NCBI RefSeq assembly: GCF_019670105.1
Contig: NZ_AP023032.1
Span: 3,404,972-3,468,971, forward strand
Reading direction: 5' to 3'
DNA: 64,000 nt
Source of the DNA: Agarivorans albus
GTDB taxonomy: Bacteria > Pseudomonadota > Gammaproteobacteria > Enterobacterales > Celerinatantimonadaceae
How positions within the stretch are numbered: position 1 is the stretch's first letter; each line of letters begins with the position of its first letter. Shown piece by piece: positions 7,845-35,260 of the stretch. Under the pieces are notes generated by a model. The model saw nothing but the letters and a program-made list of their open reading frames with translations, did not search any database and was not told the DNA's origin. The translations under genes and the position numbers were made by a program.

Positions 7845-7861
7845 ACATCAATAAACTAGCA

Positions 7862-8659: not shown

Positions 8660-8685
8660 AAATGCTGAGCTCTAAGTGATCCTAA

Positions 8686-8715
8686 TTGTTTGAGCAACGT
8701 TATACTCAATATAAT
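8686..8715 (+). promoter_or_regulatory. Sigma-70 promoter for the DUF523-DUF1722 gene
   Basis: TTGTTT at 8686-8691 and a perfect TATAAT at 8710-8715, separated by 18 bp. They lie just upstream of AAGGAG and the ATG at 8733. Confidence 0.6.
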
Positions 8716-8732
8716 GTGAAGGAGCTGACAGC

Positions 8733-9692: not shown

Positions 9693-9714
9693 TATTTCCT
9701 AACTGCAATTGTTT

Positions 9715-9742
9715 GCCCAATCATTACTGATTGGGCTTTTTT
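9715..9742 (+). terminator. Rho-independent terminator after the DUF523-DUF1722 gene
   Basis: Perfect 9-bp stem (9715-9723 with 9728-9736), 4-nt loop, then six T residues. Confidence 0.9.
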
Positions 9743-9901
9743 AACTATCCCAATCAATAAATTCTCAACTTACATATTGTTACTCATTGCCAGCAAATAC
9801 TGTGCTAAATTAGCGCCATTCGCCAAAAAAACTATACTCAAAGGCGAAACATTAAAACTAGACGACGCAAAATTTAGACTAAACGCTAACAAGAGAAAAA
9901 T

Positions 9902-10876: not shown

Positions 10877-10887
10877 TCCCCAAGAAA

Positions 10888-10921
10888 TGCACTTATAAGC
10901 TTACCGAGGCTTGTAAGTGCA
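10888..10921 (+). terminator. Hairpin between convergent genes
   Basis: A 13-bp stem with one wobble pair (10888-10900 with 10909-10921) and an 8-nt loop. Only a short T run follows, so it is a probable but not strong terminator for the DUF4382 gene. Confidence 0.5.
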
Positions 10922-10960
10922 TCACACTTTTACAGTTTAACTTCACTAAATATTCAGCTG

Positions 10961-11860
10961 CTAGGTAGAAACAAAGTCTTCTAGCTGCTGATGGCTTAAA
11001 AAGCCTGAAGCAGCGCCCGCTTCTCCAATTTTGTAAGACGCAAACAGCATCGCCCGGCTGAGCGCTTTTTCTGGGTTACTTTCTAACAAGTAGTAATGTA
11101 AAAAACATGAAAATAACGCATCTCCAGCACCAATAGTATTAAGCACGGGTCGTGTTGTTGTCGCGGGAAAATGTTGAATGGAATTTGCCTGTTGGGTATA
11201 CAGCAAAGCACCGTTGCTGCCTAATCCCATCACAATAACCGAGTTGTGATAACGCTCCACCAACTGCCAAATAAACTGATGATAGTCACCACTTACTTGC
11301 TCGTCACTCAAAAACAGCACATCGGCCATGGCAAGAAATTGCTGGTTATATTCGTCTTCAATGTTACCTAGGGTATGTACATCGGTAGCAATTAGTTTGC
11401 CAGCTTGCTTAGCCAGCTCTAGCATTGGCCGGGCAAAATTAATGTTACAAGCAACAACTGCGTCGCTATGTATAAGCTGTTTCTTAAAGCCTTGTTCCGA
11501 GTATCTGCGTTGCTGAATATCTTTCAGGTCTACATGTATTTGCCGCCGCCCCTCTGGGTCATACAAAATGACCGACTGTGGTGTATCTTGCATAGTTAGC
11601 TCAAAACAAGGTTTAACTTTCGGTATTTGAGCTATGGCTTGTTGCACTTGCTCTCCTGCCATATCGGGTGCCAGCAGCGTGCATAAGTCAACCTCATCAC
11701 CCAGGGTAGCAAGCGCTTTAGCCACATTAAATGCCACTCCAGACACACTGCTTTGAATACCGTCGAAAGGGTAAGTCACTGGGTAGTAGTGTTGAGGAAA
11801 TCCTTCAATTTTTAAGGTGGTCTCAATATTGACTAAACCAGCAACCAAAATACGTGTCAT
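10961..11860 (-). CDS. PfkB-family sugar kinase
   Basis: A 299-residue cytosolic ATP-dependent kinase of the ribokinase/PfkB family. It has the N-terminal substrate region (SSVSGVAFNVAKALATLG) and the C-terminal catalytic signature NTIGAGDALFSCFL, whose Asp is the base and whose glycines form the anion hole. Length is normal. The substrate cannot be assigned: no sugar transporter or catabolic gene lies beside it. It is divergent from sigZ with about 200 bp between, and converges on the DUF4382 gene. Confidence 0.88.
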   Translation of the reverse strand: MTRILVAGLVNIETTLKIEGFPQHYYPVTYPFDGIQSSVSGVAFNVAKALATLGDEVDLCTLLAPDMAGEQVQQAIAQIPKVKPCFELTMQDTPQSVILYDPEGRRQIHVDLKDIQQRRYSEQGFKKQLIHSDAVVACNINFARPMLELAKQAGKLIATDVHTLGNIEDEYNQQFLAMADVLFLSDEQVSGDYHQFIWQLVERYHNSVIVMGLGSNGALLYTQQANSIQHFPATTTRPVLNTIGAGDALFSCFLHYYLLESNPEKALSRAMLFASYKIGEAGAASGFLSHQQLEDFVST

Positions 11861-12062
11861 AAAGCTAACTCATTGAATATGCGTGATGAATAACGCTAAC
11901 ACATCAATAAGTAACAACAAGCTTAAATGCTCGATAGAGCGACCCAAGTATTTTTTTGTTGCCTGCAGGCTTAATAAAAATCAGAAAGTTTTGCGTCTTT
12001 TAGTGAATTGCTTAGTCTTACTAAAAGTAATCAAAGATTTTTAACCTTGAGACCCTGTTTGT

Positions 12063-12602
12063 ATGATATCTGAATGGCAAAACCACAAAGCCCAGCTTAG
12101 AAGCTATGTTAGCAAGCGGATAAATGACAGCCACGCTGTCGATGACATCTTGCAAGATGTTTACATCAAGGCCAGTAGCAATTTGCATCAACTTAAGTCA
12201 AAGGGCAGCTTAAAAGGCTGGTTATATCGTATCGCCCATAACACCATTATGGATTTTTATCGCCAGCAGAAACCCTATGAAGAATTGCCTGAAGACTTGG
12301 TCGCAGAAGATAACGATAGCGGTAGTCTAGCCCGTAAAGAGTTAGCAGAGTGCCTGCGCCCTCTCATCGATGAACTGCCCGAAAAATACGGCACACCGCT
12401 TCGTTTAGCTGAGTTAGAAGGTTACTCACAACAAAGTATCGCCGAACAGCTCGGTTTATCGCTCTCTGGCGCTAAAAGCCGAGTACAAAGAAGCCGAGTG
12501 AAGTTTAGAGAACAAATGATGGCTTGCTGTGACTTTGAAGTAGGACAAGAGGGCATCACCGACTACTCCCCAAAAAAGACAAGCTCATCGACTAAATGTT
12601 AA
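12063..12602 (+). CDS. sigZ: ECF RNA polymerase sigma factor SigZ
   Basis: A 179-residue ECF sigma factor. Region 2 (VDDILQDVYIKAS...GWLYRIAHNTIMDFYRQ) recognises the -10 element. Region 4 (LPEKYGTPLRLAELEGYSQQSIAEQLGLSLSGAKSRVQRSR) holds the helix-turn-helix for -35. The C-terminal tail MACCDFEVGQEGITDY matches the Cys-containing tail of the SigZ group. No anti-sigma factor is next to it, so control may depend on the Cys tail or on expression. It starts a likely operon with the glutathione synthetase gene 72 bp downstream, which suggests a link to thiol status. Its ribosome site is weak. Confidence 0.9.
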   Translation: MISEWQNHKAQLRSYVSKRINDSHAVDDILQDVYIKASSNLHQLKSKGSLKGWLYRIAHNTIMDFYRQQKPYEELPEDLVAEDNDSGSLARKELAECLRPLIDELPEKYGTPLRLAELEGYSQQSIAEQLGLSLSGAKSRVQRSRVKFREQMMACCDFEVGQEGITDYSPKKTSSSTKC

Positions 12603-12674
12603 ATGCTGTTTGTCTGCAACAAAGCGGTTAACAATCAAATTAATGCTCGCTCCCACGAGTACTCTGGAGAACAC

Positions 12675-14165
12675 ATGCCCAAACCAACGCGCCCTCTTAT
12701 TTCAGCTCAAATAATCCAAGAAATAACTGAATGGGCCATTATGCATGGCGTAGCTTTTCGTCAAGCCGATCACTCTGCCAGGCATTGTCCGTTTAGTATT
12801 GCGCCAATAACTATGCCGCATGAAGTATTCGAACGCCTGCATAGAGCCACATCTCTTATTACAAGGCTAATTAACAATGTGTCAGAAGATCACGACTTTC
12901 TTCAGTCGTCGCTCGCTAAAGTGGCAAAAGCAGAGCCCTTTTTTGAACGTTTATTAGCCCTGCACCAACAAGCCCATGGTGACTCAGCACATCGCTTATC
13001 ACCTGCTAGAAAACCGCTGCTAATAATGCGTACCGATTTTATGGACGACCGACAACATGGTCCAAAAGTTATCGAGTTTAATGGTATTGCTGCAGGCATG
13101 GCGCCGTTTGGCCAACGCGCAACAGAGCTGCATGCTTTTATACAAAATCAATGGCCTCAGCTTTACCAAACCTACCTAGAAGATAAGCACGCCTCACCAG
13201 CAGAAAACCAAGCTATTGAACAGCTCGCCCTTGCGATCGTTAAAGCTGCAAACAGCATTAAAGCAAGCTTTGAATCACGTGCTCAAGCTTCTTTAGACGG
13301 TTTAGCGAGTAAACCAACTTTCTTAATGGTGATACAAGAAAATGAAGACAATGTGTACGACCAACATCTTCTGGAACTAGCTCTACAGAAACAAGGGATT
13401 CGCACCCTAAGGCGCACCTTCGAGCAACTTAGTACCCAATTATCCAGCGGCGATAATCAACGCCTACTGTTAAAGGACGTAGGCGCTATTGATGTGGTAT
13501 ATCTTAGAGCCGGTTACCAATACGCTGACTACTACTCAACAACACGCAGCGAAAGAGTTTGCTGCGAAACCCTTAGCCAAACTAGGCTATTTATCGAGCA
13601 ACACAAAGTAGCCGTAAACGCCACGTTTAGCCAGCAACTCGCCACCAGTAAAACCATGCAAATGCTCCTAACAACCATGCCAGCAGAAGACTATGCCCGC
13701 TGGGGGTTAAACCTAGATGATGCCAAGCTAATCAAAAGTGTCTTGGCAGATATGAAGCCAATAAACCAAGCAACCATCGGCTGGTTTAATAGGCAGGCAG
13801 ATAAGCAAGAATGGGTACTAAAAAACCAAGGAGAAGGTGGTGGACATTGCGTTTTTGGTGAAGAAATAGCTAATAAACTTGAACAGTTAGCCCCTCATGA
13901 GTATGACGCTTGGGCTTTAATGCAGCGCTTATATCCACACGAACGCGAAGTCCCCACCATCGCAGTGCGTAATAGCACTCAAACCCACGTCGACGATCTG
14001 GTGAGCGAGATAGGCTTATTTAGTGCTTATTACGATGAAGAACCAGCAACACCGCTAAACGGATATGCTGGCTATCTTATTCGTAGTAAACCCGCGAGTG
14101 AGAACGAAGGCGGGATCCACAGCGGTAAAGGTATTTTAGATTCCTTGGTATTAAGTGACGCATAA
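12675..14165 (+). CDS. Eukaryotic-type glutathione synthetase
   Basis: A 496-residue ATP-grasp protein joining gamma-glutamylcysteine to glycine. It matches the eukaryotic glutathione synthetase family, not bacterial GshB. The substrate loop is KVIEFNGIAAG near residue 130. DVVYLRAGYQYADY corresponds to the VVYFRDGY segment of the human enzyme, and LKNQGEGGGHCVFGEE (near residue 386) to its KPQREGGGNNLYGEE glycine-rich loop. The end, GYLIRSKPASENEGGIHSG, matches the alanine/glycine-rich lid. I chose the ATG at 12675 because of GGAG 8 nt upstream; a start at 12603 would abut sigZ. It lies behind sigZ and before a C-S lyase. Confidence 0.88.
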   Translation: MPKPTRPLISAQIIQEITEWAIMHGVAFRQADHSARHCPFSIAPITMPHEVFERLHRATSLITRLINNVSEDHDFLQSSLAKVAKAEPFFERLLALHQQAHGDSAHRLSPARKPLLIMRTDFMDDRQHGPKVIEFNGIAAGMAPFGQRATELHAFIQNQWPQLYQTYLEDKHASPAENQAIEQLALAIVKAANSIKASFESRAQASLDGLASKPTFLMVIQENEDNVYDQHLLELALQKQGIRTLRRTFEQLSTQLSSGDNQRLLLKDVGAIDVVYLRAGYQYADYYSTTRSERVCCETLSQTRLFIEQHKVAVNATFSQQLATSKTMQMLLTTMPAEDYARWGLNLDDAKLIKSVLADMKPINQATIGWFNRQADKQEWVLKNQGEGGGHCVFGEEIANKLEQLAPHEYDAWALMQRLYPHEREVPTIAVRNSTQTHVDDLVSEIGLFSAYYDEEPATPLNGYAGYLIRSKPASENEGGIHSGKGILDSLVLSDA

Positions 14166-24088: not shown

Positions 24089-24104
24089 CTGTTAGGTTTA
24101 ACAG
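24089..24104. promoter_or_regulatory. lux-box-like LuxR binding site upstream of luxI
   Basis: CTGT-TAGGTTTA-ACAG has the 16-bp core geometry of classical lux boxes, with flanking TT on the right. Its centre is 67.5 bp before the luxI ATG. It abuts a possible -35 (TTTAAA at 24105) with a -10-like TGTACT at 24128, which would place the box near -43, the usual position for LuxR activation. Confidence 0.7.
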
Positions 24105-24112
24105 TTTAAAAA

Positions 24113-24124
24113 CAGTGCGCACTG
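24113..24124. promoter_or_regulatory. 12-bp palindrome inside the luxI promoter
   Basis: CAGTGCGCACTG is a perfect palindrome lying between the predicted -35 and -10 elements of luxI, where a bound protein would block transcription. The binding protein is unknown. Confidence 0.5.
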
Positions 24125-24163
24125 GATTGTACTCATAGCATCATCACTAAGGGAGAGATGCTA

Positions 24164-24715
24164 ATGGACTTTGTTAACGGCGTTGCAGAACAACTTTCAC
24201 CAACTACATTTCAACACCTAAACAACTACCGTCATCAAGTGTTTGTAGAAATGCTTGGCTGGGAACTCGATACCCCTGATGGCATAGAGCAAGACCAATT
24301 TGATCGCGATGACACCGTTTATGTTATCGCTAAAAACGAACAAGACCATATTAGCGGTTGCGCTCGTTTATTGCCGACCACCAAACCCTACCTACTGGAA
24401 GAAGTATTTCCAGAGTTATTGAATGGCCTTCCCTGCCCCAAGCAACACGACGTTTGGGAACTTTCGCGCTTTGCTGCAGTAGACTTTGATAATCATAATC
24501 AAGCGCCAACTCAACTCATGTCGAGTGAAGCTTTAGCCTTGCTCACCGCCTCAATCGAGTGCGCCAAAAAACAAGGTGCTAAGCGCTTAATCTCAGTCTC
24601 TCCGCTAGGTATAGAGCGAATGTTACGCAATGCAGGTTTTCGCTACCACCGTGCCGGCCCACCTAAAATTGTGAATGGCTACGCACTGTTTGCCTGCTAC
24701 ATAGATATTGCTTAA
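24164..24715 (+). CDS. luxI: Acyl-homoserine-lactone synthase, LuxI family
   Basis: Makes an N-acyl-homoserine lactone signal from S-adenosylmethionine and an acyl carrier or CoA. The invariant LuxI residues are visible: R and F in YRHQVFVEMLGW, W, E and D in GIEQDQFDRDD, R in SGCARLLPT, and E and R in VWELSRFAAVD. The ATG at 24164, giving 183 residues, has GGAG 8 nt upstream; the ATG at 24158 overlaps that site and is unlikely. The acyl chain cannot be predicted. Its stop overlaps the stop of the opposite-strand RsaM-like gene by 4 bp. A lux-box-like element precedes it, implying positive feedback. Confidence 0.93.
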   Translation: MDFVNGVAEQLSPTTFQHLNNYRHQVFVEMLGWELDTPDGIEQDQFDRDDTVYVIAKNEQDHISGCARLLPTTKPYLLEEVFPELLNGLPCPKQHDVWELSRFAAVDFDNHNQAPTQLMSSEALALLTASIECAKKQGAKRLISVSPLGIERMLRNAGFRYHRAGPPKIVNGYALFACYIDIA

Positions 24716-25158
24716 CTCATTACCATTGGCGACTCGCGGTAGCGATTTTTTATCGCTTCCGCCGTTGTTGCTTGCCAAGCCATCGCTTCAATAGCCTCTA
24801 GCAACAACTCATCATTGCGACGCGGGCTCACATCAAAGCCCTCTTCTTGCAACTGAATATTACTGCGTGGTAGGCCTTTTACTCGACATTGCATCCGGCC
24901 GTTATGCCATTGCCAATGCCAGTCCCACCCTAGGGTGATAGCGCACACATTTTCAAATAGCCATTCGGTATAGCCACTGAAAATAGCCTGTTCACTATTA
25001 AATTCTTCACTACTAATATTGTCTAAGCCAGAAATAATATGGCTAAAAGCGAGCACATTAAGCTGCTCAATTGACAACCTCACCAAACCATCACTGCAGG
25101 GAACAACCTGATAGCGATGTGATTCGATTACATTCTGTACACTTGCCTGTGTTTTCAT
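24712..25158 (-). CDS. rsaM: RsaM-family quorum-sensing modulator
   Basis: A 148-residue soluble protein between luxI and luxR on the opposite strand. I assign it to the RsaM family (DUF4902; RsaM/CepM/TofM of Pseudomonas and Burkholderia) because the family hallmarks occur in order: SGYTEW near residue 60, ITLGWDW near 75, GLPRSNIQL near 95 and AMAWQ near 128. In those species RsaM proteins fine-tune AHL production and have no known DNA-binding motif. The location between luxI and luxR is the same. The upstream sequence is AT-rich with no clear Shine-Dalgarno, and a lux-box-like site lies about 71 bp upstream. The family call rests on remembered motifs, not on a search. Confidence 0.78.
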   Translation of the reverse strand: MKTQASVQNVIESHRYQVVPCSDGLVRLSIEQLNVLAFSHIISGLDNISSEEFNSEQAIFSGYTEWLFENVCAITLGWDWHWQWHNGRMQCRVKGLPRSNIQLQEEGFDVSPRRNDELLLEAIEAMAWQATTAEAIKNRYRESPMVMS

Positions 25159-25221
25159 AATTTTATTTTTTAATTATTTGAGCTTCCCCTCAATGAAAGC
25201 ATTGTGAGGTCTAAGCATCAA

Positions 25222-25237
25222 TTGTCAACATTAACAG
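25222..25237. promoter_or_regulatory. lux-box-like site shared by rsaM and luxR
   Basis: TTGT-CAACATTA-ACAG, extended to 7-bp arms at 25219-25225 and 25234-25240 with one mismatch. It is 71.5 bp from the rsaM start, matching the luxI arrangement, and coincides with the -35 of the predicted luxR promoter. Confidence 0.65.
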
Positions 25238-25249
25238 TTGCGTTATACT
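25222..25249 (+). promoter_or_regulatory. Sigma-70 promoter for luxR
   Basis: TTGTCA (25222-25227), 16-bp spacer, TATACT (25244-25249). The -35 lies within the lux-box-like palindrome, so bound LuxR would be expected to repress its own gene. Confidence 0.55.
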
Positions 25250-25313
25250 GGTAATTCTACGGGAAAAATGATTATGCGCAGTATTTGCATAACTAGGAGA
25301 AGATAAAGCTGTC

Positions 25314-26018
25314 ATGGAAGCTTGGTTAGAAGAACAGTTCTGTTTGTTGGAAACCCAAGGCTCTAGTGAGGCCTTTTTCCAAGAATTATCTAAAATCACC
25401 AACGCTTTAGGGTTTGACTTTTGTGCTTATGGCTTGCGAGTTCCTTATCCCTTGTCTGCTCCTCGCACCGAAATGCTTAATAACTACCCCACCATTTGGC
25501 AACATACCTACCAAGAGAAAAACTACTTGGCGGTTGATCCTACGGTGCACCATGGGATGACGTCCCAACTTCCGATTGTTTGGAGTGACCAAGTGTTCTC
25601 CCAAACGCCAGAGCTAATGGAAGACGCTCGCGCCTTTGGCCTTGAGTATGGCTGGGCGCAATCGTCTCGCCAAGCGAATGGCACAGTAGGCATGCTAACC
25701 CTAGCCCGCTCTTCAGAAATGCTAACGCCAGCCGAGCTAGTGCGTTATCGCTATCAATTACTGTGGTTAACCCAAGTAACTCACCACGGTCTTGCATCTC
25801 GAATAACCGAAGAAAAGCTTGAGATGCCAGAATTAAGTTTACGAGAGCTAGAAATGTTGAAATGGACAGCCGATGGCAAAACTGCCGATGAAATAGCTAC
25901 CATTCTCAATATCACTGCGCGTACAGTAAACTTTCACATCAGCCAGGCGATGCGTAAGTTGGACGTGGTTAATAAAACTGCCGCTACGGTTAAAGCCGCA
26001 CTTATGGGGCTAATCTAA
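25314..26018 (+). CDS. luxR: LuxR-family AHL-responsive transcription factor
   Basis: A 234-residue receptor. The N-terminal autoinducer-binding domain keeps the residues that contact the lactone: W and Y in TIWQHTYQEKNYLAVDP, D-P, W in PIVWSD and G in FGLEYGW. The C-terminal LuxR helix-turn-helix (LSLRELEMLKWTADGKTADEIATILNI, then TARTVNFHISQAMRKL) has the conserved E, L and G. It closely resembles receptors that work with RsaM in Burkholderia. AGGAGA lies 13 nt before the ATG, rather far. It forms a complete quorum circuit with luxI and rsaM. Confidence 0.94.
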   Translation: MEAWLEEQFCLLETQGSSEAFFQELSKITNALGFDFCAYGLRVPYPLSAPRTEMLNNYPTIWQHTYQEKNYLAVDPTVHHGMTSQLPIVWSDQVFSQTPELMEDARAFGLEYGWAQSSRQANGTVGMLTLARSSEMLTPAELVRYRYQLLWLTQVTHHGLASRITEEKLEMPELSLRELEMLKWTADGKTADEIATILNITARTVNFHISQAMRKLDVVNKTAATVKAALMGLI

Positions 26019-26109
26019 GCTCCAAAAAAAGCAGCTCAAACGTTAGAAATCAAAGTCTCAAGGCTAATATGCACTATAATCTAGCTGTCTCTCACCAGCC
26101 TTAACTAGC

Positions 26110-26781
26110 ATGACTCTTGATTTAGATTTCCACTCCACCTTATACCTAATAGGCTTAATCGCAGTATTTGTTTTTGCGCTAACTGGCGCGCTGGCTGCTG
26201 CTAAGCGCGAGCTAGACATCCTTGCTTTTGTATTTGTTGGCATTGTCACAGGCATAGGTGGCGGAACAATTCGCGATTTATTGCTGAGAACTGATCAAAT
26301 CTTCTGGATTGCCGATCCTAACTACCTCACGGTGTGTATTGTCGCTTCAGTGATGACCTATTTTTTTGCCCATTGGGTAATCAAAATTGATCGAATCTTA
26401 TTGTGGATGGATGCAGCGGGCATCGCCTTGTTTGCAGTATTAGGTACCAGTAAGGCCTTAAGTTACGAGGTCGCGCCGCTGATTGCTATTTTAATGGGGG
26501 TAATCAGCTCCACTTTAGGATCTGCAATTCGCGATTTAATGATACAAGTGAAGCTGGTGATTTTTGAGCCTGAAATATACGTAACAGCTTGTTTATTAGG
26601 AAGCTTGTCTTACGTAGTGCTAAGTCACTTTGGTATTAACGAGGTCTACAATATCTTGTTATCTAGTGGCGCGGCTTTTCTGTTACGGGTACTGGCTATA
26701 GAACTCGATTTAAGATTTCCCAGCTTCACACTTAGTAAGCTACAAAACCGGGAAATTCGTAAACAACAGCATAAGTCTTAA
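26110..26781 (+). CDS. TRIC-type cation channel family protein (YadS/UPF0126)
   Basis: A 223-residue inner-membrane protein of two repeated three-helix units plus a seventh helix. Each unit carries the kinked glycine motif of the family: GIGGGTIRDLL near residue 50 and STLGSAIRDLM near 140. Prokaryotic homologues of trimeric intracellular cation channels conduct K+ or Na+ as trimers, although some YadS relatives are linked to glycine uptake. Its stop overlaps the serA stop on the other strand by 4 bp (convergent). Confidence 0.88.
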   Translation: MTLDLDFHSTLYLIGLIAVFVFALTGALAAAKRELDILAFVFVGIVTGIGGGTIRDLLLRTDQIFWIADPNYLTVCIVASVMTYFFAHWVIKIDRILLWMDAAGIALFAVLGTSKALSYEVAPLIAILMGVISSTLGSAIRDLMIQVKLVIFEPEIYVTACLLGSLSYVVLSHFGINEVYNILLSSGAAFLLRVLAIELDLRFPSFTLSKLQNREIRKQQHKS

Positions 26782-27956
26782 GCGTGTTCACCAATGGCAT
26801 TCACATGGAATACATGCTCTACATTGGCAATCGCCTCTAGCAACTCGGTGGTGGCTGGTGTTGCAATGTCCATCAAGGTGTAAGCAATATCATTGCGACT
26901 CTTGTTCAGCATATCAATCACGTTGATATCCATGTCTGAGAGCAAGGCTAATACATTACTTAGTACCTTGGGTACGTTGTCGTTGGCAAAGGCAATACGG
27001 TAGCCCTCTGTTCTGCTTAACTTAATGTTAGGAAAGTTAACCGAATTATGAATGTTGCCATTTTCCAAGAAATCAATTAATTGGCGTGCAGCCATTACGG
27101 CGCAGTTTTGCTCGGCTTCGTTAGTGCTTGCGCCTAGGTGTGGCAAACTAAGTACCTTAGGATGTTTTAGCAAAGCAAGGCTCGGAAAATCGCTAACGTA
27201 TTGAGATAACTGCTGTTTAGCTAAGGCGGTAAGCAAGGCATCTTCGTCTACAATGCTGCCTCGCGCAAAGTTCAGCAACACTGCACCTTGTTTAATAGAT
27301 GCTAAGTTATCGCTATTAATTAAGCCTTGGGTATGTTTGTTAGCAGGCACATGAATAGTGACATAATCACTCGCAGCTAAAAGATCTTTTAGCTCATCAG
27401 CACACTCAACTTCTGAAGATAAGCGCCAAGCTGCTTGCACACTCAGTGCAGGGTCAAAACCAACCACCTTCATGCCTAAACCAAGAGCAGCATGAGCCAC
27501 CTCGGCACCAATAGCACCTAAGCCAACTACTCCTAGCGTTTTACCGGTGAGCTCAGAGCCAACAAACCCTTTTTTCTCGGCTTCAACTTTAAGCTGTAAA
27601 GCTTTTGCATCCATATCTTCGCTCAAGCCTTCAATAAAGCTTAAACCGGCGGCGATGTTACGCGCACTTAGTAGCATTCCCCCCAAGACTAACTCTTTTA
27701 CGGCGTTGGCATTGGCGCCAGGCGTATTAAACACAACGATGCCCTGCTCACTACAACGCTGGATGGGAATATTATTTACCCCCGCACCACAACGCGCTAA
27801 GGCTTTAACTTCACTTGGAAAATCGTAGTCATGTAAATTAGCGCTGCGGAGCATAATGGCATCTGGTGCCTCCTGCCCTTCAGCTACTTGGTAACGCTCC
27901 TTAAAACATGCCAAGCCTTGTTGGTGAATATTATTAATGGTCCGAATATTCGGCAT
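26778..27956 (-). CDS. serA: D-3-phosphoglycerate dehydrogenase with ACT domain
   Basis: A 392-residue enzyme making 3-phosphohydroxypyruvate, the first step of serine synthesis. The NAD-binding motif GVVGLGAIGAEVA is near residue 145 and the catalytic His is in SLPHLGASTNEAE. A C-terminal ACT domain (GYRIAFANDNVPKVLSNVLALLSDMDINV) should sense an amino acid such as serine. The ATG at 27956 follows GGGAGAAG; a longer in-frame start has no such signal. It lies 81 bp behind serC in an operon, so the first two steps of serine synthesis are encoded together. Confidence 0.9.
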   Translation of the reverse strand: MPNIRTINNIHQQGLACFKERYQVAEGQEAPDAIMLRSANLHDYDFPSEVKALARCGAGVNNIPIQRCSEQGIVVFNTPGANANAVKELVLGGMLLSARNIAAGLSFIEGLSEDMDAKALQLKVEAEKKGFVGSELTGKTLGVVGLGAIGAEVAHAALGLGMKVVGFDPALSVQAAWRLSSEVECADELKDLLAASDYVTIHVPANKHTQGLINSDNLASIKQGAVLLNFARGSIVDEDALLTALAKQQLSQYVSDFPSLALLKHPKVLSLPHLGASTNEAEQNCAVMAARQLIDFLENGNIHNSVNFPNIKLSRTEGYRIAFANDNVPKVLSNVLALLSDMDINVIDMLNKSRNDIAYTLMDIATPATTELLEAIANVEHVFHVNAIGEHA

Positions 27957-28037
27957 ACAGCTTCTCCCTAAACAACAATTACGGTGTTTTCGTGACAAAC
28001 TGCAGCACGAAAATAGAATATTAAAATCTTTACAAAC

Positions 28038-29153
28038 TTATAGGCACACCTGCTTATAAGCCCAAGCTAACCAAGGCATAAAGCGCTCTAGATCTTCTTT
28101 CTCAACAGTGGCGCCACACCAAATGCGCAAGCCTGCAGGAGCATCTCGGTAAGCACCTATGTCAAAAGCAACCTGCTCTTGGTCTAACAGGCCGATGATA
28201 GTTTTAACCTGTTCAGCAGACGCATCCAATGTTAAACAAACACTGGTATTTGATAGGGTTTCAGGCTGTTTCGCCAAGAAACTAATCCACGCGTTGTCGG
28301 CAACAAACTGTTTTATGACTTCGAGGTTTTGTTGGGATTTGCTGATGCTTGCCGAGACTCCGCCCAACGATTGAACCCATTTGAGGGCGTCGATATAGTC
28401 CGCCACACATAACATCGACGGCGTGTTAATCGTTTCGCCTTTGAATATACCTTCAATGAGTTTCCCTCCTTGGGTTAATCGAAATACTTTAGGCATTGGC
28501 CAGCTTGGTTGGTGGCTCTCTAATCGTGCTACTGCTCGTGGGCTAAGAATAATCACCCCGTGAGCACCCTCACCGCCCAGAGCTTTTTGCCAGCTGTAAG
28601 TCACAACATCAAGCTTTTCCCAAGGCATAGGCATGGCAAATACTGCAGAAGTAGCATCACAAATAGTTAAACCACTGCGTTGAGAGCTTATCCAATCACC
28701 ATTTGGCACGGCTACACCAGAGGTAGTGCCGTTCCAAGTAAAAATACAATCATTATCAGGGTTAGCTTGGTTCATGTCTGGTAGCTGGCCGTAATCGCTG
28801 CTGTAGTGATTAACTTGCTCAAGCTTTAGCTGCTTGCTCACGTCGGTGAACCACCCTTTACCAAACGACTCCCAACTAAAAATATCTAGTGGCTTAGGGC
28901 CTAATAGCGACCACATCACCATTTCCATCGCCCCCGTGTCAGAGCCTGGAACAATACCCACTCGGTAACCTTCCGGTAACTCCAATAATTGCTCGGTAAG
29001 TTGAATCGCTTCGCCTAGTTGAGCTTTACCAATTTTACTGCGATGAGAGCGACCAAGCGCATCAATGTTCAGCTGGCTAAGCGCGTAGCCCGGACGTTTT
29101 GCACAAGGCCCAGATGAAAAGTTTGGGCAATTGGGTTTTAACTGCGGTTTCAT
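28038..29153 (-). CDS. serC: Phosphoserine aminotransferase, alphaproteobacterial/Methanosarcina type
   Basis: A 371-residue fold-type-I PLP transaminase converting phosphohydroxypyruvate to phosphoserine. The start NFSSGPCAKRPGYALSQL and the segment IVPGSDTGAMEMVMWSLLG belong to the SerC type of alphaproteobacteria and Methanosarcina. The usual gammaproteobacterial type begins with a motif like NFSSGPAMLP. The PLP Lys is in TYSWQKALGGEGAHG near residue 190. AAGGATC precedes the ATG. It heads the serC-serA operon. Confidence 0.88.
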   Translation of the reverse strand: MKPQLKPNCPNFSSGPCAKRPGYALSQLNIDALGRSHRSKIGKAQLGEAIQLTEQLLELPEGYRVGIVPGSDTGAMEMVMWSLLGPKPLDIFSWESFGKGWFTDVSKQLKLEQVNHYSSDYGQLPDMNQANPDNDCIFTWNGTTSGVAVPNGDWISSQRSGLTICDATSAVFAMPMPWEKLDVVTYSWQKALGGEGAHGVIILSPRAVARLESHQPSWPMPKVFRLTQGGKLIEGIFKGETINTPSMLCVADYIDALKWVQSLGGVSASISKSQQNLEVIKQFVADNAWISFLAKQPETLSNTSVCLTLDASAEQVKTIIGLLDQEQVAFDIGAYRDAPAGLRIWCGATVEKEDLERFMPWLAWAYKQVCL

Positions 29154-29462
29154 TAACGATCCTTGTAAGTAGCTGCCTAACTAGGCAATTGAATAATAAC
29201 TAAAAGCAGTATATGCGAGAGAGCTAGACCATAAAATGACCTGACACCAATTTTAAACGCTGGCGAAAACTTCAATACAAACAAAGGTAAATAGTCTAAT
29301 TATCAAGATAATTGCAGAGCATATACAGTGGTGAGCAACGCTTAAAACTAAATAGAGATACTAATCCCCCATATAACACTAAGGCCCAAATCCTTGACTT
29401 CATTTAAGACCTAAAGCTGGGTAGTATTTAACTAAGTCTCAATCTCAAAAAGCGAACATAGC
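29154..29462. other. 309-bp intergenic region between serC and the Nudix gene
   Basis: Divergent promoter region. I see no tRNA, riboswitch, strong hairpin or short gene. A small inverted repeat (GCCTAACTAGGC, near 29170) lies just upstream of serC. Confidence 0.4.
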
Positions 29463-29993
29463 TTGCCAGCCCTTACTTATTGCCCTCAATGTTCCAGTAC
29501 TACATTCAAGCAAATCGATGTTAAACAATGGGCTTGCAAACAATGCAAATTTAGCTACTTTCACAATATGGCCTCTACCGCTGGCGCCTTACTCATTTAT
29601 AAAGGAGAACTATTACTAGTAGAGCGCGCCATTGATCCGAAAAAAGGCTACTGGGACTTACCGGGTGGATTCATCGAATATGGTGAAAGCTTAGAACAGG
29701 GCTTACAACGAGAGCTAAATGAAGAACTTGGGCTTGAACTAGCCACCGAAAAATTTAGCTACTTTGGCTCATTTGCTAATCAATATACCTACAACCAAGT
29801 GCTTTATCATACTTGCGATAGCTTTTTTGTTTACTTGCTAGACAGCAAGATATCACCACAAGCAAGAGATGATGTGGCAGGCTGGCAATGGCACAATCTA
29901 AAAAACCTTCCTTTAGACAAAATAGCTTTTACCTCGGTAAAGCAAGGACTTAAAAAACTTTCTCAACAAACCATCATCCCTATTTACAAATAA
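29463..29993 (+). CDS. Nudix hydrolase with N-terminal zinc ribbon
   Basis: A 176-residue hydrolase of nucleoside diphosphates linked to another moiety. Residues 1-30 form a zinc ribbon (CPQC...CKQC). The Nudix box starts at GGFIEYGESLEQGLQREL and ends NEELGLEL, with all catalytic Glu residues present. This layout occurs in NADH-pyrophosphatase-like and ADP-sugar hydrolases; the substrate is open. The start appears to be TTG at 29463, because the zinc ribbon needs it and no ATG lies upstream in frame nearby. The ribosome site is weak. Confidence 0.85.
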   Translation: MPALTYCPQCSSTTFKQIDVKQWACKQCKFSYFHNMASTAGALLIYKGELLLVERAIDPKKGYWDLPGGFIEYGESLEQGLQRELNEELGLELATEKFSYFGSFANQYTYNQVLYHTCDSFFVYLLDSKISPQARDDVAGWQWHNLKNLPLDKIAFTSVKQGLKKLSQQTIIPIYK

Positions 29994-30107
29994 ATCACAT
30001 AAAGTTGATGTAGAACATACCCTCTTAACCATATTTTTACTATGGTTAATTTGCTCAAAAAGCGAACAACAAGAACTTCTAGCAGGAAGCAAAAAGAGGG
30101 TACAAAT

Positions 30108-31574
30108 ATGGATAACCATCCCCGTAGTTCTAGTGTTATTACCGCAATACTCACCTTGGCAGCGGCGCTGTGTTTAATACTGTCATTTTCAAGTAATGCG
30201 GAACCCAAAGCCTTAGTGCTAAAACCATTCAAGCAGCTCAGCCAAGAAAGCGCCGAGTGTGCCGGATGTCATAAAGACAAAAACCCATCAATTTATGCAC
30301 AATGGGGCCGTTCGAAACACTACGGAGCCAACGTAGGGTGCTACGAATGTCACCAAGCAAACCCTGAAGACAAAGACGCCATCACTCACGAAGGCCACAC
30401 CATTTCGGTGATTGTTTCACCTACCGATTGTGCTAATTGCCATACTCAAGAAGTTGACGAGTTCGCTAAAAGCCACCACGCAAAAGCTGGGCAGATCATT
30501 GGTTCGCTAGATAACTTCCTCGCAGAGGTAGTGGAAGGAGCACTCACCTTTAATGGCCAGTCTCCCGCTGCGGTTAATGGCTGCTGGCAGTGTCACGGTT
30601 CAGAGGTGAAAGTGCTGGAAAACGGTGATTTAGACCCCACCACGTGGCCCAACACCGGCATTGGACGAATTAACCCAGATGGTTCGGTTGGCGCTTGTAC
30701 TGCTTGTCACCAACGCCACGAATTCTCGATGGTGCAAGCGCGCAGACCAGAAGCCTGTGGTAAGTGTCACCTAGGTCCAGACCACCCTCAAAAAGAGGTT
30801 TACGAAGAGTCTAAACACGGCATTAACTTCTACGCCAACGTTGATCGGATGAACCTCGACTCGGCCAAGTGGATTGTTGGCGAAGATTACGACGCCGCGC
30901 CAACCTGCGCCACTTGTCATATGTCAGCTACTCGCGAACTGCCTGTAACCCATGATGTTGGCAACCGTATTTCATGGACATTGCGCCCAGCAATCTCGGA
31001 AAAAATTGATGCTAAAGCGAAGGCTCAAGGTAAAGAAGTTAAGTCTTGGGAAGCGCGTCGCGACGACATGAAGAACGTCTGTGAGTCTTGCCATACTAAG
31101 TCGATGATCGACAATTTCTACCAGCAATTTGATTCACTGGTTGTTTTATACAACGACAAATTCGCCCGTCCAGGTAAAGACTTAATGGATGTGTTGAAGA
31201 GTGAAAAAATGCTAACCGAAACAGGCTTTGATGAAGAGATAGAATGGACCTGGTTCTACTTATGGCACCACGAAGGACGCAGAGCCCGTCACGGCGCTGC
31301 CATGCAAGCACCAGACTACGTGCAATGGCACGGCATGTATGAAGTCGCAGAACGCTTCTACATAGAGTTAGTTCCACAGTTCCTAGAAGTGGTAGAAAAA
31401 GCCGAACACAAGGGCAATACCGAAGGTGCAGAAAAAGCCCGGGCTGTTCTTGCCGAAATACTCGATCGCCCAGAGCACGCCTGGTTTAGTGGCAACGAAC
31501 CGGAAGAAGTGAAAAAAGCCAGAAAAGAAGCACAAGCGGCCTTTAAAGCCCGTTACTTAAGCGAAAGCAAATAG
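30108..31574 (+). CDS. Octaheme c-type cytochrome, hydroxylamine oxidoreductase-like
   Basis: A 488-residue periplasmic multiheme enzyme. An N-terminal signal peptide is followed by exactly eight CxxCH haem sites (CAGCH, CYECH, CANCH, CWQCH, CTACH, CGKCH, CATCH, CESCH). Haem spacing and segments such as RHEFSMVQARRPEACGKCH and APTCATCHM match the HAO family. With the NapC-type partner directly downstream, the likely direction is reduction of hydroxylamine or nitrite/NO using quinol electrons, as proposed for epsilonproteobacterial HaoA/HaoC. Y404 in PDYVQWHG lies near the region of the P460-crosslinking Tyr, but I cannot align it surely. The ATG at 30108 has AGAGGG 7 nt upstream. Confidence 0.88.
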   Translation: MDNHPRSSSVITAILTLAAALCLILSFSSNAEPKALVLKPFKQLSQESAECAGCHKDKNPSIYAQWGRSKHYGANVGCYECHQANPEDKDAITHEGHTISVIVSPTDCANCHTQEVDEFAKSHHAKAGQIIGSLDNFLAEVVEGALTFNGQSPAAVNGCWQCHGSEVKVLENGDLDPTTWPNTGIGRINPDGSVGACTACHQRHEFSMVQARRPEACGKCHLGPDHPQKEVYEESKHGINFYANVDRMNLDSAKWIVGEDYDAAPTCATCHMSATRELPVTHDVGNRISWTLRPAISEKIDAKAKAQGKEVKSWEARRDDMKNVCESCHTKSMIDNFYQQFDSLVVLYNDKFARPGKDLMDVLKSEKMLTETGFDEEIEWTWFYLWHHEGRRARHGAAMQAPDYVQWHGMYEVAERFYIELVPQFLEVVEKAEHKGNTEGAEKARAVLAEILDRPEHAWFSGNEPEEVKKARKEAQAAFKARYLSESK

Positions 31575-31623
31575 CCACCGATGGGAGCAGTAATGCTCCC
31601 CTCTTTTAAAAGAGGATGCTGAT

Positions 31624-32190
31624 ATGACAAATAACCAGCAGAAGACTCGGTGGCAGAAGCTATGGGCTTGGCTTAAAAAGCCACTCATTGTTGGGATACC
31701 CATTGGTGTATTTGTATTAGTGTTAGGTTTGGCAACTGTGCAAGGCAGCTTAGTACTATCCAGTACTAACGAGTTTTGTTTTAGTTGCCACCTTAAAATG
31801 GACACTATTGTGCAAGAGTACAAGGCATCGAGTCACTACGGAGACGGCAGCAACATCGCCGCCACCTGTGCCGACTGCCACGTACCACACCCATACTTTG
31901 AAATGCTACAGGTAAAAATTGCCGCCACCGCCGATATTTATCACATGATGGTAGGCACCATAACCAAGGAAAATTTCGAAGAGCACCGGCCAGCCCTTGC
32001 TGAAACCGTTTGGCGTGATATGCAAGCCAATGACTCAGCCAACTGCCGACACTGCCACCAAGGTGACAACTTTGATTTAAGCAAACAACCACAGCGCGCG
32101 CGATTAAATCACCAGCAAATAGCCGCCCGCGGAGAAACCTGCGTAGACTGCCACCAAGGCTTAACCCACAAGCGGATAGTAATCGAATAA
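31624..32190 (+). CDS. NapC/NirT-type tetraheme quinol dehydrogenase
   Basis: A 188-residue protein anchored by one N-terminal membrane helix (LIVGIPIGVFVLVLGLATV), with four haem c sites: CFSCH, CADCH, CRHCH and CVDCH. This is the NapC/NirT/NrfH-like architecture that oxidises membrane quinol and passes electrons to a periplasmic multiheme enzyme. It sits 49 bp behind the octaheme cytochrome, with AGAGGA before its ATG, and is surely its electron donor (the HaoC/CycX role). A terminator follows. Confidence 0.92.
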   Translation: MTNNQQKTRWQKLWAWLKKPLIVGIPIGVFVLVLGLATVQGSLVLSSTNEFCFSCHLKMDTIVQEYKASSHYGDGSNIAATCADCHVPHPYFEMLQVKIAATADIYHMMVGTITKENFEEHRPALAETVWRDMQANDSANCRHCHQGDNFDLSKQPQRARLNHQQIAARGETCVDCHQGLTHKRIVIE

Positions 32191-32210
32191 GACCTTTACT
32201 ATTAAATATA

Positions 32211-32248
32211 AAGTCTTCAAAGTAACTGCTTTGAGGACTTTTGTTTTT
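32211..32248 (+). terminator. Terminator of the octaheme-NapC operon
   Basis: A 12-bp stem with one wobble (32211-32222 with 32229-32240), 6-nt loop, then TTGTTTTT. Confidence 0.85.
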
Positions 32249-32308
32249 CTACCCTTTACTCATCCGACCTCTCATGTTAAAAACTTGTAAAAAACCACAA
32301 AGTAAATT

Positions 32309-32851
32309 ATGAATCACTACTTTCGCCTATTAAGCATGTTTATCCGCCATTGGTTTAGTGCCAAAACTCACTTAGATCCCACGGGAGATTTTGTTATTAA
32401 GCTACGTGCCTTACCCTTTGATTGCGACGCCAACATGCACCTTACTAACTCTCGCTATTTTAGCTTTGGTGATTTAGGGCGCATCGATATGATGTTAAAA
32501 ACCAAACTGGGCTCGGTGGCACTTAAAAAGCGCTGGTTAGGCGTAGTGAATGCACAGTCGGTGACTTATATTCGCCCGATTAAGCCTATGGCCAAGGTGG
32601 AGCTTCACAGCAAGCTATTAGGCTGGGATGAGAAGTATTGGTATTTTGAACACCGCTTTATTGGCAACAATACGTTGTACGCCACTATCTTAGTGCGCGG
32701 AGTATTTTTAAAAGGTAAAAAGCCAGTGCCAATGAGCGAGCTACTGTCGTTGGTGGATCATGACCATCCTTCTCCAGAGTTACCGATGCGGGTAGCTCAC
32801 TGGAAGCAACTACTGTCGACTAAAAAGCAAGAATCTCCAGTGCTAAGCTAA
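32309..32851 (+). CDS. Acyl-CoA thioesterase-like hotdog protein (THEM6/4HBT type)
   Basis: A 180-residue protein with a single hotdog fold. The segment PFDCDANMHLTNSRYF near residue 45 carries the Asp and His/Asn pattern typical of the 4-hydroxybenzoyl-CoA thioesterase/THEM6 group, which hydrolyse acyl-CoA or acyl-ACP. TYIRPIKPMAKVELHSKLLGWDEKYWYFEHRF is the matching central strand region. The first 20 residues are amphipathic and may associate with the membrane. Substrate and pathway are unknown, and neighbours give no clue. Confidence 0.83.
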   Translation: MNHYFRLLSMFIRHWFSAKTHLDPTGDFVIKLRALPFDCDANMHLTNSRYFSFGDLGRIDMMLKTKLGSVALKKRWLGVVNAQSVTYIRPIKPMAKVELHSKLLGWDEKYWYFEHRFIGNNTLYATILVRGVFLKGKKPVPMSELLSLVDHDHPSPELPMRVAHWKQLLSTKKQESPVLS

Positions 32852-32910
32852 ATGTCTTGCTTTGCTGGAAATCTATAAGCGATAAAATATCCGCTAGTGG
32901 GTAATCAAAA

Positions 32911-32960
32911 AGTCGTTCTATCTGCCATAATTTAGATAGAACGGCGACTTGGTATACCAA
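32911..32960 (+). promoter_or_regulatory. Structured leader of the solute-binding protein gene
   Basis: A long hairpin (arms 32911-32923 and 32934-32950 with a 3-nt bulge) is followed immediately by the perfect palindrome TTGGTATACCAA (32949-32960), whose last base is the first of the ATG. No clear Shine-Dalgarno exists. It could act in translation control or as an operator. Confidence 0.45.
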
Positions 32961-33685
32961 TGAATAAACACCCAAAGCCTATTTGGCTTACCGCTTTATT
33001 AATTCTCTTTGTCAGCTACATGGGCTTCACCCAAGCCCAAACCATTACCTTGGCTACCAGCAAATCCATTCCGCCTTACATCATCAAAGATCAGCAGTCT
33101 GGCATTCAGCTAGATATTATCAAGCAGGCTTTTAGCAATGCAGGCTATCAAGTAAAGCAGGTTATTTTCACTTCTAATTTACGCGCAGAAAGGATGCTAG
33201 AACAAAATGCCGTAGACGCCATTGTAAATGCCCCTAACAACGGCACACACGCTCACCTCTCAGAACCTGTAATCTTCTATCAAAATGTTGCTATTAGCCT
33301 GTCTGTTCGTCAGCTAAACATCCAATCCATTGATGACTTAACTAAGTTTCGCTTAATGGCTTTTCAAAATGCCAAAAAGTATCTTGGTGAACGCTTCGCC
33401 AAAGCAACTGAGCAAGCTAAATTCTATACCGAAGTAGCTAATCAAAGTGCCCAATTAGAGCGTTTATACCGCGGACAAGTGGATGTGATTGTTTTAGACA
33501 AGCGGATATTCCACTATTTAAATCAGCAACTTATTGCCAAGCAACGTCCTACAGCGCCAGTGACCAAGCACCTTATTTTTCCAGAATCACCGCGGCTATT
33601 GGGCTTTCATGACCCAGAGCTTCGCGACAAATTTAACGCAGGTCTGAAGCAATTGAACGATCAAAAAGTAAAGCATTCAGAATGA
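32960..33685 (+). CDS. Periplasmic solute-binding protein, family 3 type
   Basis: A 241-residue exported protein with signal peptide ending AQA. It has the bilobed family-3 binding fold: ITLATSKSIPPYIIKDQQSGIQLDIIKQAF at the start and VDAIVNAPN and VDVIVLDKRIF as further lobe markers. Members bind amino acids or similar polar ligands. No ABC permease or ATPase is adjacent, and no histidine kinase or cyclase is fused, so it is an orphan. Such orphans in marine gammaproteobacteria are common and of unknown role. Its leader shows unusual structure. Confidence 0.82.
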   Translation: MNKHPKPIWLTALLILFVSYMGFTQAQTITLATSKSIPPYIIKDQQSGIQLDIIKQAFSNAGYQVKQVIFTSNLRAERMLEQNAVDAIVNAPNNGTHAHLSEPVIFYQNVAISLSVRQLNIQSIDDLTKFRLMAFQNAKKYLGERFAKATEQAKFYTEVANQSAQLERLYRGQVDVIVLDKRIFHYLNQQLIAKQRPTAPVTKHLIFPESPRLLGFHDPELRDKFNAGLKQLNDQKVKHSE

Positions 33686-33926
33686 ACCAACTGGCTAAAC
33701 CAGTGAAAACAGCCATTTTGTGTTACAAATTAGATCAAGCAGCTATTTTCGATAGTTTTTACAAGAATAATCGGGCTTAACACTGATAACAAAAATTTAA
33801 CAGCCCACTAATTGAGCAGCTTTAAAATAGTAGCAATGCCCACTTATTCAGGCCTACTAGCTGTTTAAGATCACTTTTTAGAAAAATCATCTTTTTTTTA
33901 CTTAGCGAATAAAAGATTTAAGCCAA

Positions 33927-33946
33927 AACTGTCATAAATGACAGTT
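33927..33946. promoter_or_regulatory. Perfect lux-box-like palindrome upstream of glgC
   Basis: AACTGTCATAAATGACAGTT is a perfect 20-bp palindrome with the same CTGT-N8-ACAG core and TT flank as the sites at luxI and rsaM/luxR. Its centre is 70.5 bp before the glgC ATG. A -10-like TATCAT at 33966-33971 puts it near -42, the classical LuxR activating position. The left half also resembles one PhoB half-site, but the required direct repeat is missing. Confidence 0.65.
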
Positions 33947-34006
33947 ACATTCAGCATGAAAACGCTATCATAGACTTTCTATTACGCCCACGAGGAAATT
34001 TTCGAT

Positions 34007-35260
34007 ATGTCCGAAAACCGCTATTCCCACACTTCCAGTAATCGCTTAGTGAGACGTTCAGTTGCTTTGGTTCTTGCTGGAGGAAAAGGCACTCGTTTAA
34101 AAGAGTTAACCAACAAGGTTGCCAAGCCAGCTGTTTCTTTTGGTGGCAAATATAGAATTATTGATTTCACCCTATCAAACTGTATCAATTCAGGGGTGCG
34201 AAACATTGGGGTACTTACGCAATACATGGCGCATGATTTGATCATGCACCTACAGTCAGGCTGGCAAATTCTTAACCCCGCCTTAAACGAGCGAGTATCA
34301 ATTATTCCTGCTCAACAACGAACCGGCGAAAACTGGTATCGTGGAACGGCTGACGCGGTATATCAAAACCTCGATATTATTGATCATGAGCATTATGACC
34401 GGGTACTGATTCTAGGTGGCGACCATATCTACAAAATGGACTACTCTCGCATGATTAACTTCCATGCAGAGAACGATGCCGATGTTACCGTAGCTTGTAT
34501 TCGTAAACCCTTATCTCAAGCCTCCTCTTTTGGCGTAATGGGCTTGGATGATCAAGGTAGAATCGTCGACTTTGAAGAAAAACCTGACCACCCTAAATCT
34601 GACCCCAACAACCCTGAAAAAGCACTGGTGTCTATGGGCATATACATCTTCAACATGGACGTATTAGACGATGAGCTGCGTAAGGGTTTATTAAAACCAG
34701 GATACTCTCACGACTTTGGCCACAATGTTATTCCTAGCATGCTAAAAAACCGCAAGGTTTACGGCTATGTATTTGCTGACAAAGGCCACCCAGGACGTAC
34801 CGCTTACTGGCGTGATGTGGGTGATATTGATGAGTACTTTGCAGCAAACATGGACTTGGTTGACCCTAACCCAGAGCTAGACTTATACGATCGTGATTGG
34901 CCAATTATTACCGATCAAAAACAACGCCCCGGCGCTAAGTTTGTATTTAATGAAGAAAACCGCAGAGGCTATGCCACCGACTCTTTGCTTTCAGCAGGCA
35001 CCATAGTATCGGGGGCTAAAGTGCATCGTTCGTTATTATCTTTAGATGTGCGGGTCGAAGAGCACTCTGAGCTAGAGCAGGTAATTGCGCTTAATGGCTG
35101 CAGTATTGGCAAAAAATGTAAGATTCGAAAGGCAATTATTGCTGAAGACTGTGTCGTGCCAGATGGCACCGTAATTGGCTATGATGAAGCCGAAGATAAG
35201 CGCCGTTTTACCGTCTCGGCCGGCGGCGTTATTTTAGTCTCTTGTGAAATGCTAAGTTAA
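34007..35260 (+). CDS. glgC: Glucose-1-phosphate adenylyltransferase (ADP-glucose pyrophosphorylase)
   Basis: A 417-residue cytosolic enzyme making ADP-glucose from ATP and glucose-1-phosphate, the committing step of glycogen synthesis. The nucleotide loop ALVLAGGKGTRLKELT is at residue 24, the sugar-binding Lys is in GIVDFEEKP-like DFEEKPDHP near 190, and KYRIIDFTLSNCINSG and YYRGTADAV-like WYRGTADAV are present. The C-terminal third is a left-handed beta helix. GAGGAA precedes the ATG. It stands alone: glgA, glgB and glgP are not adjacent. Regulation by quorum sensing is suggested by a lux-box-like site. Confidence 0.95.
   Translation: MSENRYSHTSSNRLVRRSVALVLAGGKGTRLKELTNKVAKPAVSFGGKYRIIDFTLSNCINSGVRNIGVLTQYMAHDLIMHLQSGWQILNPALNERVSIIPAQQRTGENWYRGTADAVYQNLDIIDHEHYDRVLILGGDHIYKMDYSRMINFHAENDADVTVACIRKPLSQASSFGVMGLDDQGRIVDFEEKPDHPKSDPNNPEKALVSMGIYIFNMDVLDDELRKGLLKPGYSHDFGHNVIPSMLKNRKVYGYVFADKGHPGRTAYWRDVGDIDEYFAANMDLVDPNPELDLYDRDWPIITDQKQRPGAKFVFNEENRRGYATDSLLSAGTIVSGAKVHRSLLSLDVRVEEHSELEQVIALNGCSIGKKCKIRKAIIAEDCVVPDGTVIGYDEAEDKRRFTVSAGGVILVSCEMLS

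Follow-up and report, generated by a model that had tools for sequence, protein, structure and literature searches.

Does the circuit that reports cell density in Agarivorans albus also reach the storage of carbon? The 64,000-nucleotide window analysed here (G000:C1:3404972-3468971, within a single-contig genome of 4.79 Mb referred to as G000) holds a quorum-sensing locus and, 8 kb further downstream along the window, a glgC gene, and similar dyads are found upstream of both. We consider it probable that the locus forms a LuxI-RsaM-LuxR switch, in which a single LuxR responding to acyl-homoserine lactones (AHLs) would act through the dyad AACTGTYA-N4-TRACAGTT on luxI, rsaM, a small-RNA (sRNA)-like gene elsewhere in the chromosome, and glgC. 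As a new predicted target of a known kind of circuit, glgC is well supported, and a new sRNA candidate accompanies it. The comparisons below draw on 12 genomes of the family, seven from the genus (G000-G006) and five from other genera.

The quorum-sensing locus and its boxes

The locus comprises luxI, encoding the AHL synthase (24164-24715, + strand; Pfam Autoind_synth, 2.6e-26), rsaM, encoding a DUF4902 protein that is a negative regulator of AHL quorum sensing (24712-25158, - strand; Pfam DUF4902, 4.7e-22), and luxR, encoding the AHL receptor and transcription factor (25314-26018, + strand; Pfam Autoind_bind, 5.8e-38, and GerE, 1.3e-17). The luxI start was set at 24164, which aligns with the start in G009, and the open reading frame (ORF) is also open from an ATG at 24158. 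Adjacent proteins of the Autoind_synth, DUF4902, and Autoind_bind plus GerE types define a LuxI-RsaM-LuxR locus, for which production of AHL and response to it are predicted from the genes, and the nearest solved chains to the luxR product in a PDB sequence search are RhlR, QscR, and SdiA. The product of glgC (34007-35260, + strand) is identified as glucose-1-phosphate adenylyltransferase by a score of 470.4 bits to NCBIfam TIGR02091, above the equivalog cut-off of 424.9. Exactly one Autoind_bind protein is encoded in each of the seven genomes of the genus, G000 included, and the regulator is therefore not in doubt if the boxes are LuxR sites.

Three sites were named in the original prediction, and each lies where it was placed: CTGTTAGGTTTAACAG before luxI (24089-24104, + strand), found at the same place in relatives; TTGTCAACATTAACAG, shared by the divergent rsaM and luxR genes (25222-25237); and the lux-box-like dyad AACTGTCATAAATGACAGTT upstream of glgC (33927-33946). 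A scan of the window for [CT]TGT-N8-ACAGTT, run on its + strand, gives these three and no others. The distances given with them are likewise correct, the box centres being 67.5 bp from the luxI ATG at 24164 (61.5 bp from the ATG at 24158), 71.5 bp from the rsaM start at 25158 (84.5 bp from the luxR start at 25314), and 70.5 bp from the glgC start. What has to be amended is the description of the glgC site as a perfect 20-bp palindrome, since it is built from 9-bp arms around a central AA and is symmetric at 18 of 20 positions, compared with 14 of 20 for each of the other two boxes. Measured against AACTGTYAN4TRACAGTT, the glgC site has no mismatch and the other two have one each. The lux box of Vibrio fischeri luxI is a 20-bp dyad with a CTGT-N8-ACAG core, centred near -42. 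The boxes described here agree with it in dyad size, core, and position, but differ in the flanks and in the core letters (AACTGTYA here).

Promoter geometry

The -10-like hexamers were called by inspection, and spacings are counted from the 16-bp core of the box. At luxI, TGTACT (24128-24133, + strand) lies 23 nt past the box, a hexamer and spacing retained in nine of nine luxI promoters from two genera. The rsaM promoter has TTTCAT (25193-25198, - strand), preceded by TGC, again 23 nt past the box, and the same spacing is seen in all eight rsaM promoters that have a box, with TG(C/A)TTT(C/G)AT in the seven genus members and TTTATT in G009. For the sRNA-like gene, TGC followed by TTTAAT occurs at 23 nt in six of six genomes. 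At glgC, the hexamer TATCAT (33966-33971, + strand) lies 21 nt past the 16-mer and no good -35 is apparent; this spacing recurs in six of six promoters, with TATCAT in the five that have the exact box, and TATCAC in G006, where the box is degenerate. If transcription starts 7 nt past the hexamer, the box centres would be at about -43.5 for luxI, rsaM, and the sRNA gene, and at about -41.5 for glgC, close to the -42 originally proposed. Judged from this inferred -10, the glgC box would be situated near -42 of a promoter with a weak -35. Centres near -41.5 and -43.5 are within the range for class-II activation, about -41.5 being the classical activating position.

On the luxR side of the shared box, the -10-like TATACT (25244-25249, + strand) lies 6 nt past the box, and a -35-like TTGTCA (25222-25227), separated from it by a 16-nt spacer, falls within the box itself. 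With this -35 covered, transcription of luxR should be blocked by bound LuxR, and the promoter layout predicts that LuxR probably represses its own gene.

Specificity of the dyad

A genome-wide scan had been suggested along with the original prediction, and its outcome depends on how the motif is written. In all pattern scans the reversed pattern served as control. The loose pattern CTGT-N8-ACAG, which is the gammaproteobacterial LexA consensus, gives 47 sites in G000 compared with 18 for the control, and was dropped as unspecific because it takes in LexA-type boxes: such sites precede lexA (a tandem pair at 392862 and 392882), a dinB-like gene (3202887), and a uvrD-like gene (4572893), all named from protein starts, and CTGTATA is present on one or both sides in 12 of the 47. 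YTGTYAN4TRACAR (18 sites vs 6 in G000) was also dropped, as it takes in LacI-like TGTTAGCGCTAACA palindromes and coding matches. Nine of these 18 sites are within ORFs according to a simple ORF caller (one of these ORFs being only 69 amino acids long), and the nine outside include the glgC, luxI, and rsaM/luxR boxes.

The tight form AACTGTYAN4TRACAGTT, obtained from the luxI and rsaM/luxR boxes by symmetrising their half-site, behaves differently. At up to two mismatches it gives 14 sites in G000 vs 8 for the control, whereas at up to one mismatch five sites are found vs none over the 4.79 Mb, and 30 vs none over the seven genomes of the genus. These 30 are made up of seven luxI boxes, seven rsaM/luxR boxes, five glgC boxes, five sRNA gene boxes, one intra-ORF site present in four genomes, and two singletons (in G005 and G006). 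Exact matches occur at glgC only, one in each of five genomes. With only two to five tight sites per genome, the predicted core regulon is completely testable.

Conservation in the genus and family

The luxI box is present in seven of seven genus genomes and in both genomes of genus g4, and the rsaM/luxR box in seven of seven and one of two, respectively; in the g4 genome G011 the luxI box is present and none is found at rsaM/luxR. The reading of the luxI and rsaM/luxR sites as lux boxes is thereby strongly supported. The glgC box is identical in five of the seven genus genomes (G000, G001, G003, G004, and G005). Across these five species all 20 columns of the box are invariant, whereas upstream of it this holds for 54 of 103 columns, and for 50 of the 60 that separate it from the start. 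G005 and G000 share 67% identity upstream and 80% over the coding DNA of glgC, but 100% within the box. In the three genomes of genera g2 and g3 there is neither an ortholog of this LuxR nor a box within 600 bp of glgC; the best counterparts of LuxR there are a match to the DNA-binding domain only (G007) and a protein with 26% identity (G008), with no match in G010. The glgC and luxR gene trees leave most genus-level forks open, and do not settle gain vs loss of the box for G002 and G006. As a separate observation, glgC of the draft genome G009 (G009:C19:24703-25947) has an in-frame TAA, which may be real or an assembly error.

Evaluation of the glgC site

The sites, their conservation and rarity, the promoter geometry as inspected, and the single AHL-type LuxR of each genome are directly computed. 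Taken together, the exact match to the consensus, the activating position, and the invariance in five of seven genomes make direct control by LuxR the best reading of the glgC site, and the original prediction of quorum control at glgC is partly supported. A number of points weigh against it. The box is degenerate in G006 (CTGTCACAACTTACGG) and missing in G002, though both have the luxI and rsaM/luxR boxes, and the two g4 genomes, which have luxI, rsaM, luxR, and the luxI box, lack a matching box in the 600 bp ahead of glgC. The core at glgC reads CTGTCAT..ATGACAG, with T at core position 7, which is occupied by A, G, or C in the luxI, rsaM/luxR, and sRNA boxes, and the -10 hexamer is 2 bp nearer the box than in the other three promoter sets (21 vs 23 nt). 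Moreover, the 20-mer consensus was written after the glgC site had been seen, although the luxI and rsaM/luxR boxes do contain its half AACTGTYA.

The weight matrix is also of limited help. Trained on the luxI and rsaM/luxR boxes only, without the glgC and sRNA sites, it assigns glgC 13.8 bits, a value that first-order random sequence as long as the genome attains about 40 times. In a leave-one-out version, scores of the luxI and rsaM/luxR boxes run from 17.3 to 22.4 bits, and the luxI, rsaM/luxR, and sRNA boxes scored 15.3-23.6 bits; a coding site at 4055475 (18.1) and LacI-like operators (17.6 and 20.3) outscore glgC as well. Within the window the luxI and rsaM/luxR boxes rank first and glgC third, and genome-wide the weight of glgC is modest. 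Because such a score is common in random sequence, it would not by itself prove the glgC site, and the case is built on the rarity of the 20-mer, its position, and its conservation instead of on the matrix.

Finally, G000 has a second glgC (G000:C1:3491953-3493149), 41% identical and immediately ahead of a glgA-like gene, where 18 kb contain no lux-type box. Glycogen synthesis need therefore not depend on the boxed copy, which may supplement the supply instead of being its only source.

Alternative interpretations of the glgC site

The alternative that survives best, and which we nevertheless regard as unlikely, assigns the dyad, as an operator, to a different regulator whose half-site is similar, such as one for phosphate or carbon, with no relation to quorum sensing. 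The glgC core CTGTCATAAAT is also a perfect single PhoB-type half-site, matching one Pho-box repeat, which counts for such a regulator and against LuxR. In G008, pstS-pstC-pstA-pstB-phoU-like genes (identified by reading the proteins) are divergent from glgC and have TTGTCATAAAA-type repeats upstream, and the retention of the two other boxes in G002 without one at glgC would also fit. Pho boxes, however, require in-phase direct repeats 11 bp apart, whereas glgC has one TGTCA only, no other occurring in the 11 bp that flank it on each side, and the orientation of the second arm is inverted. Nor was a second set of promoters with this dyad seen in a scan of the seven genus genomes with AACTGTCATNNATGACAGTT, which at up to three mismatches gave 25 sites (control 8). 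Five of these are the glgC sites at zero mismatches; there are none at one, a single site at two (inside a G005 ORF), and the rest are at three. The recurring three-mismatch sites are the coding site at 4055475 (four genomes) and a site spanning the start of an atpC-like gene (six genomes, context checked in three), and the others are three lux-type boxes already counted (two in G006 and one in G004) and six singles. As an observation in its own right, the region L245 (G008) 7455-13853, from another genus of the family, shows TGTCATAAAA repeats before the pstS-like gene that is divergent from glgC.

Even less probable is that binding of LuxR to the glgC box lowers glgC expression when cells are dense, or that it has no effect. 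The box does cover the -35 region, a placement similar to the one that predicts repression at luxR, and one of the nearest solved relatives of the protein is named quorum-sensing control repressor. On the other hand, no good -35 is present under the glgC box, and its centre at about -41.5 is the activating position.

A LexA (SOS) box is highly improbable, in spite of the enrichment of CTGT-N8-ACAG in G000 and its presence before lexA and the dinB-like and uvrD-like genes, since glgC has CTGTCAT on both sides with no CTGTATATA-like arm, is not among the 12 sites marked by CTGTATA, and scores 13.8 on the lux matrix vs 9.8 on a LexA matrix that gives 20.4 and 21.9 at the lexA and dinB-like gene sites (both in its training set), while the nine distinct LexA-type 16-mers compared, picked from the 47 sites by gene context or AT-rich core, never carry CTGTCA, in contrast to the CTGT(C/T)A or TTGTCA arms of the lux-type sites.

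A small-RNA-like gene behind a lux box

One of the five tight sites in G000 (2325113-2325132) is intergenic and distant from the lux locus, and about 150 bp leftward of it are conserved in six of the seven genus genomes. Conservation, box, and terminator together mark an sRNA-like gene outside the window (G000:C1:2325094-2324944, minus strand; L190:2145-2295:-). The conserved stretch consists, in order, of the box, TGCTTTAATTTA without variation, a middle part that varies, and an intrinsic terminator, GCCACT...AGTGGC with a T run. CTGT-N8-ACAG is found in the box in six of six genomes, and the box is within one mismatch of the 20-mer in five of six, being weaker in G006. In G005 the gene is located among other neighbours, with box and terminator kept. 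A covariance model built from the six loci finds matches in six of the 12 family genomes, the same six, and none in G002. The sole genus genome without any glgC box is thus also without the sRNA, which, as a single genome, only suggests a connection.

Single-sequence folds from three species give z-scores of -2.7 to -3.1. In the six-species consensus structure, both-sided changes occur in only 3 of 35 pairs, and the covariation term of +2.99 speaks against the structure; with so little covariation, the structure is unproven apart from the terminator. A short frame in the G000 locus is interrupted in G003, where one base differs, and this argues against a peptide. The locus has no match in Rfam at the thresholds of that database, and a 601-base search gave three sub-threshold matches only (JA04, E 0.46; TarA, E 0.78; and a miRNA family, E 0.41), all of which were gone at E up to 1 when the loci of the six species were searched.

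As a candidate base-pairing target of the sRNA, glgC ranked 56 of 57 among the window ORFs by crude duplex energies, and luxI (rank 28), luxR (34), and rsaM (42) were not prominent in the same test, which thus gives no sign of pairing.

Proposed circuit

From these sequence features we infer that LuxR binds the dyads, that its binding activates, and that glycogen changes as a consequence. At high cell density, LuxR-AHL would bind the dyad at about -42 to -44 and assist RNA polymerase where a promoter has a -10 and lacks a good -35. Activation of luxI would then constitute positive feedback, and activation of rsaM a brake on the circuit, as for abaM in Acinetobacter, while LuxR would shut its own promoter via the box over the luxR -35. 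The sRNA gene would be activated as well, and glgC, one of two in the cell, would be raised when cells are dense, giving more ADP-glucose; crowding may in this way tell the cell to store glycogen. We lean slightly towards a more extended scheme, in which one AHL receptor directly drives luxI, rsaM, the genus-specific sRNA, and glgC, so that carbon is directed to glycogen and other mRNAs are simultaneously retuned by the sRNA, a LuxR-activated riboregulator of a family outside Rfam. Direct control through a lux box at the first committed step towards glycogen would tie a private carbon store to population density, and the sRNA offers a way to study how a quorum circuit of the RsaM type may extend to further targets.

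Comparison with known systems

The abaI-abaM-abaR locus of Acinetobacter baumannii similarly has one luxI, one rsaM, and one luxR gene, with predicted lux boxes before the synthase (CTGTAAATTCTTACAG) and rsaM (CTGGTTAAATATAACAG) genes, the abaM box being 68 bp from the abaM start compared with 71.5 bp here (PMC8088503). Unlike in the window, the abaM box is reportedly 178 bp downstream of the abaM -35/-10, and the accessible part of that account mentions no glgC or sRNA site; the Acinetobacter findings are called consistent with an incoherent feed-forward loop (PMC8088503). According to a review of rsaM loci, Acinetobacter belongs to topology type 1 (PMC10710839, Table 1), whereas the window is of type 3a, the type of Agarivorans, Aliagarivorans, and Hydrogenophaga, with rsaM opposite to luxI and luxR and divergent from luxR. 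The review notes a strong negative effect of AbaM in Acinetobacter, and neither 'lux box' nor 'glycogen' occurs in its main text (PMC10710839).

The view that quorum control of glgC had not been described needs qualification, as AHL signalling has been linked in print to changes in glgC expression. In Salmonella Enteritidis, C12-homoserine lactone (C12-HSL) raises glgC (review PMC9693372), Salmonella being described in the accessible literature as making no AHL by itself, and in RNA-seq on quorum sensing in Citrobacter rodentium, glgC and glgX are among the downregulated genes (PMC10580866). The available portions of these two sources mention no lux box at glgC, and none came up in searches of open-licence papers on quorum sensing with glycogen or glgC. 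In Acidithiobacillus ferrooxidans, glgB is repressed under an AHL analogue (PMC5021923).

Other dyads in the genus

The intra-ORF site among the tight matches, AACTGTCAATATTGTCAGTT (G000:C1:4055475-4055494, one mismatch), is inside a sugar-transferase-like ORF beside an exosortase-like gene, both named from reading the proteins. The 20-mer is identical in four of the seven genus genomes (the ORF context being that seen in G000), and could reflect a coding constraint or an internal LuxR site. An extra lux-type box, AACTGTCAATGTTGACAGTC (G006:C1:2967282-2967301), lies between a chemoreceptor-like gene and small ORFs, and is within one mismatch in G006 only. The TTGTTAGCGCTAACAG-type palindromes at G000:C1:987817 and 1487064 resemble operators of the LacI family, and are located 24 and 39 bp from the starts of genes that, by reading, resemble extracellular glycoside hydrolases.

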